NCBI RefSeq assembly: GCF_000020605.1
Contig: NC_012781.1
Location: 2,791,501-2,855,500, forward strand
Length of the DNA: 64,000 nucleotides
Source: Agathobacter rectalis ATCC 33656
Lineage (GTDB): Bacteria; Bacillota; Clostridia; Lachnospirales; Lachnospiraceae
Direction: 5' to 3'
A model generated the notes under the pieces. The model worked only from the letters and a program-made list of their open reading frames with translations. It did no database searches and was not told the DNA's origin. The translations under genes and the position numbers were made by a program. Positions 2,098-60,548 of the stretch are shown here, one piece after another (within the stretch, counting starts at the first letter, position 1; every line of letters starts with the position of its first letter).

Positions 2098-2376
2098 AGT
2101 ACGCTCTTGTGGCATGTACCCGCCGGACTGCTGCACTGCTCCCAACGGTGCTACGCTGCGTGACTAAGATTCTGTATGGATTATGCATTTACTTTTTCTA
2201 TACATGACGAAACCGTCGCTACTCGCCTTCCATGGCTCGATAGCTCCTTGCCACGGCATCCATGCCGTGGCATTTCTGTGTTATGAGCATAATCCTACAG
2301 TATCTAAGCCACTGCGCTATTCGCGCCGTTGGGAGCAGTGCAGCAGTCCGGCGGGTACATGTCGCAAGCCCTTACT
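2098..2376 (+). repeat. Long palindromic repeat, copy 1 of 5
   Basis: The two ends form a ~50-bp imperfect inverted repeat (2098-2148 with 2326-2376, including CCCGCCGGACTGCTGCACTG and its complement). Inside is the family core: GATTCTGTATGGATTATGC pairs with GCATAATCCTACAGTATC, then GACGAAACCGTCG leads into two further hairpins, the second being CCACGGCAT-cc-ATGCCGTGG, ending in ATTTCTGTG. It lies in the 545-bp gap between the divergent HtrA-like gene and mutS2. A short open frame on the plus strand here is an artefact of the palindrome. Confidence 0.85.
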
Positions 2377-11895: not shown

Positions 11896-12170
11896 GGACT
11901 GTAAGCCACGGCACCGCTAGGGCACACGCATATGCTTTGCTTTCGCTACGCTTTGCCGCTAAGATACTGTACGGATTATGCTTTTTGCGCTTCTATGCTT
12001 GACGAAACCGTCGAAACGCGCCCTCCGTGGCGCGGTTCTCCTTGACTTGCCCTCCATGGCAAGTCATTTCTGTGCTTCATGTGCATAATCCTACAGTATC
12101 TAAGCGGCTTCGCTATTCGCTCAATCAAATGCATATGCGTATGCCCTAACGGTGCCGTGACTTGCAGCCC
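11896..12170 (+). repeat. Long palindromic repeat, copy 2 of 5
   Basis: The outer arms (GCCACGGCACCG...GGCACACGCATATGC with its near complement at 12131-12165) differ in sequence from copy 1 but pair with each other. The core is intact: GATACTGTACGGATTATGC, GACGAAACCGTCG, hairpin a around CCGTGG, hairpin b GACTTGCC-ctccat-GGCAAGTC, ATTTCTGTG, GCATAATCCTACAGTATC. It lies between hisS and the nuclease gene. The right flank GCCCTTACT resembles that of copy 1. Confidence 0.85.
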
Positions 12171-13991: not shown

Positions 13992-14123
13992 TGTAATATT
14001 ATGCCATAATGAAAACTTTTATGCAATAGCACTTTTAAAGTTTCCACAAATATTTTTGAAGTTACTGTTCACACCTAACAGTATGACCAGCGACGCTCTT
14101 AGGTGGATTCCACCACAGCGTAA

Positions 14124-14393
14124 GGGCCGTAAGCCCCGCCCGGCGTGGTGCACACGGACTCTCGTGAGAGCGCATAGCGAAGCTGTTTAGATACTGTAGG
14201 ATTATGCCCATGAAGCACAGAAATCCGCAGCCATGGACGGCTGGGGAAGGCGTTATGCGCCACGGACGGCGCATAAAAGCCGGTTTCGTCGAGCATTGAA
14301 AACCCAAAAGCATAATCCGTACAGTATCTTAACAGCGCAGCGTAGCGAAAACGAGAGTCCGTGTGCACCACGACCGGGCGGGGCTTACGGCCC
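14124..14393 (-). repeat. Long palindromic repeat, copy 3 of 5 (reverse orientation)
   Basis: Arms GGGCCGTAAGCCCCGCCCGG and its complement at the right end pair over ~50 bp. The core is in reverse orientation relative to copies 1, 2 and 4. It has hairpin a ATGCGCC-gtccgt-GGCGCAT and hairpin b CAGCC-gtccat-GGCTG, different in sequence from the other copies but in the same position. It lies between the nag operon end and the nuclease promoter. Confidence 0.85.
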
Positions 14394-14399
14394 GAACTC

Positions 14400-14438
14400 A
14401 AAAAAGCCACCCCAGGCATAACACCCGGTGTGGCTTTT
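14400..14438 (-). terminator. Terminator of the nag operon
   Basis: On the minus strand AAAGCCAC...GGTGGCTTTTTT forms a stem with a U run, 70 nt after the EIICB stop. The hairpin may work in both directions. Confidence 0.65.
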
Positions 14439-41777: not shown

Positions 41778-42060
41778 GTGTGAGCAAATACAGCCCAGCG
41801 GCGCAGGCGACGAGTACACTCTCGTGTTCGCTACGCTTTGCAGCCAAGATACTGTAAGAATTATGCCTTATAGGTTTTCTATGCCAGACGAAACCGTCGC
41901 TACTCGCCTTCCATGGCTCGATAGCTCCTTGCCCCGGCTTCCATGCCGGTGCATTTCTGGTTCTCTTGGGCATAATTCAACAGTATCTAAGCAGCTCCGC
42001 TATGCGCTCCCACGAGAGTGTACTCGCCGCCTGCGCCACCTAAACATATTTGCTCACGCC
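41778..42060 (+). repeat. Long palindromic repeat, copy 4 of 5
   Basis: Outer arms GGCGCAGGCGACGAGTACAC and its near complement pair over ~50 bp. Core: GATACTGTAAGAATTATGCC, GACGAAACCGTCG, hairpin a nearly identical to copy 1, hairpin b CCGGC-ttccat-GCCGG, ATTTCTGG, GGCATAATTCAACAGTATC. The A-to-T type changes in the stem (GGATTATGC to GAATTATGC) are matched on the other side (ATAATCC to ATAATTC). It lies between pdxR and pdxS. Confidence 0.85.
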
Positions 42061-60336: not shown

Positions 60337-60548
60337 GGGTGCTCCGCATAAATTGCATGTGCCTTCGCTCAGTATTTCGATATTAAGACTCTGTAGGAAT
60401 TATGATTTAGGTTTTGGCTATAGGACGCAACCGGCTTTTAGCGCCGTCCGTGCGTCCATGCACGGACATTGCTGTGTTGTGACATAATTCCAACAGACTC
60501 TAAATATCTCCATATTCGCGATGTCTCATGCAATTTCTACAAGCACCC
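60337..60548 (+). repeat. Long palindromic repeat, copy 5 of 5 (shorter, divergent)
   Basis: Outer arms GGGTGCT...AAATTGCATG pair with CATGCAATTT...AGCACCC. The core is divergent (GACTCTGTAGGAATTATGA with GACATAATTCCAACAGACTC) and hairpin b is GTCCGTGC-gtccat-GCACGGAC. It lies between the P-type ATPase and the ArsR gene. The rest of the gap to 60700 shows one more hairpin (GTAACTGC/GCAGTTAC). Confidence 0.75.

Follow-up and report, generated by a model that had tools for sequence, protein, structure and literature searches.

A TwoAYGGAY RNA with CsrA-type loops at the tip of a MITE-like palindrome in Agathobacter rectalis

The palindromic element at positions 14124..14393 (plus strand) of the window, the 64,000-nucleotide stretch of the Agathobacter rectalis ATCC 33656 genome analysed here, carries a member of the known RNA family TwoAYGGAY (RF01731). 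We consider it probable that this is a MITE-like element with a TwoAYGGAY RNA at its tip, in which the letters that would contact CsrA are under selection and whose RNA would bind a CsrA dimer. TwoAYGGAY was first described by Weinberg et al. in 2010 as a structured RNA motif, "probably RNA, probably not cis-regulatory" (PMC2864571), and CsrA binding was already proposed for it by Gardner and Eldai in 2015 (PMC4333381). The idea of CsrA binding is not new and was tested here; what is new are the position-specific constraint and the mobile-element setting. A literature search found no published test of the proposal.

The element is delimited by its inverted repeats, by pairing along its whole length and by homologous MITE-like copies elsewhere. 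Its outer arms (14124-14165 and 14351-14393) enclose an RNA core (14175..14343, plus strand) that matches the full length of the RF01731 covariance model (positions 1-168) with 146.1 bits and an E-value of 5e-27, the curated cut-off being 43 bits. The core is a member of the family by sequence and structure as well as by its two AYGGAY-type terminal loops, both of the CsrA-type ANGGAN form. These close hairpin 1 (14228..14243, plus strand; CAGCC-AUGGAC-GGCUG, loop 14233-14238) and hairpin 2 (14253..14276, plus strand; UUAUGCGCC-ACGGAC-GGCGCAUAA, loop 14262-14267). The initial annotation, in which hairpin 1 is called hairpin b, had located the palindrome and its inner hairpins correctly, as confirmed from the sequence and by an inverted-repeat search, and the five stems it listed are hairpin 1 of the five TwoAYGGAY copies in the window. 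The other copies were likewise identified by Rfam match and all lie on the minus strand, with cores at 2153..2319, 11948..12115 (orthologous to L073:4669-4836 in a sister genome), 41833..42002 and 60372..60514. The last of these is shortened (91.9 bits), retaining the GGA loop in hairpin 1 while its hairpin-2 region is reduced and has no GGA loop. The whole 3.45 Mb genome contains 49 copies. A 106-aa open reading frame on the minus strand (14099-14419) overlaps the whole palindrome and is probably a repeat artefact.

Comparison of the copies shows which letters are constant. A CCAT loop had been described as invariant on a stem that differs in every copy; the fixed loop is real, but it had been read on the wrong strand, CCAT being the reverse complement of AUGG in CANGGANG, and these four letters are not always present. 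Genome-wide, ATGG occurs in only 35 of 47 hairpin-1 loops, whereas the fixed letters are C-A-n-GGA-n-G, with the GGA present in 45 of 47. The stems do vary, with full covariation, but not from each copy to the next, as there are 27 distinct hairpin-1 stems among 47 copies and 7 distinct hairpin-2 stems among 36. In a wider set of 108 copies from approximately 28 genomes, including that of the window, GGA is found in 96 of 106 readable loops and CACGAnG in 8, the loop A preceding nGGA is almost invariant, and the loop-closing C-G pair is invariant (106/106), while the pair next to it is AU in 36, CG in 35 and GC in 31. The logo of loops and stems over genomic copies that the initial annotation had suggested as a check shows that the loops are not random and that the stems are paired: 93.2% of pair cells are paired, compared with 61% in shuffles, and there are 981 double-change cells, compared with 268 in shuffles. 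Read on the RF01731 sense strand, mismatches among paralogues are more often G-U than A-C (123:78, p = 0.002).

The loop consensus CANGGANG, whose N positions are free and whose closing pair never varies, is the published CsrA/RsmE binding hairpin motif, an ANGGAN hexaloop in which N is variable; the SELEX consensus for CsrA is RUACARGGAUGU (PMC7652899, PMC3791407). As in Csr/Rsm sponges, more than one ANGGAN-type GGA loop is present per RNA.

The strongest evidence for the reading of the loop is its constraint between sister genomes, which is independent of any co-occurrence with CsrA. We compared 23 orthologous copies (44 loops) between this genome (G000) and a sister genome (G250), aligned in the RNA's own orientation. 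The two N positions of the loop changed in 9 of 88 cases and the six fixed positions in 1 of 264 (Fisher p = 2e-5). The conserved letters, which are the CsrA/RsmE contacts, are thus spared, supporting the earlier suggestion that the loop is recognized by a protein or an RNA. Substitutions are approximately 3.5 times rarer in the core (87/3854) than in the arms (180/2290). Changed positions amount to 1.5% of the paired core, 3.6% of the unpaired core and 6.0% of the paired outer arms, with approximately 2.8% in the flanks, which include coding DNA. One orthologue has lost its GGA.

The same comparison bears on the suggestion that some mechanism rewrites the stems. For the inner hairpins we reject it, since only two Watson-Crick-to-Watson-Crick double changes were found in the core pairs of the 23 elements; because orthologues hardly differ in these pairs, the variation among inner stems goes back to old divergence of the paralogues. 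The outer arms may undergo such rewriting, as there were 16 such double changes, more than 10 times the approximately one expected if the two sides were independent (our own estimate, from 949 pairs, a rate of 0.06 per side and one third pairing). Single-step intermediates between orthologues show no excess of G-U over A-C (25:25 over all stems). Maintenance or repair of pairing in the DNA itself, perhaps through template switching, would fit these observations.

Six of the 23 orthologues are inverted in place, core and arms together, between collinear flanks (positions 251900, 512070, 968366, 1837835, 2273859 and 2672573 in this genome; L225, L179, L161, L223, L155 and L236, respectively, in the sister genome). 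The longest exact arm match in the inverted copies is only 13-40 bp, except in one sister copy with 51 bp, and such short matches make mis-assembly of the draft sister genome a less likely cause of the inversions.

The palindrome reaches well past the Rfam model, in other bacterial families too, and the TwoAYGGAY RNA is the tip of an apparently unreported MITE-like, near-perfect palindrome of approximately 285-300 bp without a transposase of its own. The clearest case is the complete genome of a member of another family (G280), with seven near-identical copies over 285 bp. All seven have terminal inverted repeats of the type CTGYRATTCGTAATAT, and five are bordered by target duplications of 8-10 bp (GTACATAAAA, ATCATATAA, ATCCATAA, GTTTTGCAT and ATGGAATGG), with partial repeats at the other two. 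Together with the sharp limits of the copies, these inverted ends and target duplications constitute the anatomy of a MITE. A setting of this kind is absent from the TwoAYGGAY literature that we found, and no report of CsrA sites in MITEs was found in the open-access literature. The plasmid and phage records searched contained no autonomous partner transposon.

In the genome of the window, the ends of the copies are degenerate. They are old: in our searches no two copies matched better than approximately 88%, apart from a single segmental duplication (1481197 and 1485100). Presence/absence polymorphism, a third feature of MITEs besides terminal inverted repeats and target-site duplication, is found here as well: three copies of the sister genome are absent from this one, two of them with clean junctions (L226 and L231) and one with a remnant. 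Short repeats of 5-6 bp are found at the two empty sites, which could alternatively have arisen by deletion between such repeats. Five loci were matched in another A. rectalis strain, with flanks of 97-99.6% DNA identity. At the locus of copy 495876, A. rectalis DFI.5.28 carries another palindrome in place of TwoAYGGAY (L273:5407-5613). The record NZ_CP143948.1 (L272-L276), although labelled a plasmid, probably represents part of a chromosome, since it contains rpoB, rpoC and operons for ribosomal proteins.

Other elements were observed in and beside the copies. A group II intron (L055:6531-8340; RVT_1 and GIIM protein, Rfam D1D4-3) is inserted antisense in TwoAYGGAY copies, at the same spot in at least three of those in this genome (1468841-, 2184758+ and 2406493+), just after hairpin 1 on the other strand. 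The copy at 2053357+ in this genome probably also carries a group II intron. The insertions resemble those of class C introns, which target terminator-like hairpins. The window also contains a Clostridiales-1 RNA (RF01699; 51513-51689), a multi-copy RNA of this bacterial family that might also be a mobile repeat.

It is conceivable, but unlikely, that the element is a selfish palindromic repeat only, with hairpins that serve transposase recognition or hairpin replication and with no involvement of CsrA. The clear MITE anatomy is in keeping with this explanation, as are intergenic insertion in both orientations and the equal numbers of G-U and A-C intermediates between orthologues, which are expected where pairing is maintained at the DNA level. 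However, old and immobile orthologues change far less in the core than in the arms, the paralogue mismatches favor G-U, and a decaying MITE is not expected to spare six CsrA-contact letters while its two N letters vary.

The placement of the copies bears on a further alternative, in which each is a cis-acting element that renders its own transcript responsive to CsrA. The copies are intergenic and sit near gene ends, which would suit such a role, as would the fact that CsrA acts on mRNAs. Yet they occur in both orientations, with no bias relative to the adjacent genes (19 forward, 18 reverse, 8 convergent and 4 divergent), no fixed orientation or position upstream of genes was found across the 49 copies, and the orthologues inverted in place likewise count against a cis-acting function. 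A classical leader would be expected to show such a bias, and the cis-regulatory label that Rfam gives to RF01731 is not supported by these data; we regard this alternative as improbable. A search of the element ends yielded no convincing promoter or terminator, the 19 alignable left ends showing only AT-rich upstream DNA. Where two copies lie close together, they almost always diverge from adjacent 5' ends (9 divergent, 3 tandem and 0 convergent; L186, L198, L206, L208, L217, L218, L219 and, in this genome, 613736/614033 and 2296099/2296552).

The distribution of CsrA was examined in a family sample of 250 genomes, almost all from different genera, and in a class sample of 393 genomes. In the family sample CsrA is encoded in 36 of 37 genomes with RF01731 and in 87 of 213 without it (p = 9e-12); in the class sample these numbers are 33 of 35 and 102 of 358 (p = 8e-15). 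The RF01731 genomes that lack CsrA, one in the family sample and two in the class sample, are all drafts but still count as exceptions. No positive association with CsrA was seen for RF01699, an unrelated control RNA of this bacterial family (odds ratio 0.58). Additional csrA genes are somewhat more frequent in genomes with RF01731 (7/36 vs 5/87, p = 0.04). The link between RF01731 and CsrA presence is confounded by flagella, as FlhA is present in 37 of 37 RF01731 genomes of the family sample, where the presence of CsrA can hardly be separated from that of FlhA. Since flagella co-occur equally, we reject co-occurrence with CsrA as stand-alone proof.

The genome of the window encodes fliW adjoining csrA, the product of which aligns with solved CsrA/RsmE proteins through the conserved RNA-binding strand. 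A divergent second CsrA, csrA2 (L032; G000:C1:3209104-3209238), directly adjoins flagellin. Several observations point away from CsrA. Highly stable secondary structure may, according to a review, hinder CsrA binding, and in light of that review the long stems of TwoAYGGAY count against it, as do the CACGAnG loops without GGA (approximately 8% of hairpin-1 loops) and the orthologue that has lost its GGA. A link between TwoAYGGAY and CsrA is nonetheless likely. A partner other than CsrA, for instance the UCC of the 16S rRNA anti-Shine-Dalgarno, pairing with GGA, or another loop in a loop-loop contact, would agree with the Shine-Dalgarno-like nature of GGA and with the CACGAnG variants, but it has little probability given that rRNA pairing requires neither the near-invariant A before nGGA nor the invariant closing C-G pair, and that CsrA presence is linked to the RNA in two genome samples.

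For a MITE-like element with a CsrA-binding RNA at its tip, the following course of events can be envisaged. An early burst of transposition would have scattered the element to many intergenic sites. After insertion, selection would have kept the core, above all the CsrA-contact letters, while the outer arms drifted. RNA presumably transcribed from many copies would then bind the CsrA dimer, each RNA offering two sites. The outcome could be titration of CsrA, as by CsrB or RsmZ, or the marking of the transcripts that carry the element. Titration by the copies, that is, function as a sponge, is possible. More tentatively, the copies may form an array seeded by transposition, with up to approximately 100 candidate hairpins, kept by selection as a CsrA sponge that acts alongside FliW; this number is two hairpins times approximately 49 copies, some of which are shortened or lack a loop.

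TwoAYGGAY resembles the sponges CsrB, CsrC, RsmY and RsmZ in its ANGGAN-loop hairpins, and E. coli CsrB belongs to the same Rfam clan as RF01731 (CL00106). It differs from them in having two sites per RNA, approximately 49 dispersed copies per genome and hosts with FliW, and no promoter or terminator of its own was seen at its ends. With MITEs and REP/BIME sequences it shares its short, palindromic, intergenic and multi-copy nature, and the ends and 8-10 bp duplications in G280 are those of MITEs. In contrast to these repeats, selection maintains its core as an RNA whose loops are of a protein-binding type, and a partner transposase was not found in the plasmid and phage records. The fliW-csrA gene pair is shared with the Hag-FliW-CsrA switch of Bacillus subtilis, where the known antagonist of CsrA is the protein FliW (PMC7652899), whereas here there is a candidate RNA antagonist besides FliW.

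A 2020 review stated that joint modulation of CsrA by FliW and sRNAs was still to be determined in any species (PMC7652899). Both FliW and TwoAYGGAY are carried by abundant gut bacteria related to A. rectalis, and position-resolved binding predictions are now given for an RNA that has had no assigned function since 2010. If the copies do act as a CsrA sponge, RNA and protein antagonists of CsrA would work within one cell. As a mobile element that distributes sites for a global regulator, TwoAYGGAY would also offer a clear example in bacteria of transposition spreading a regulatory RNA.
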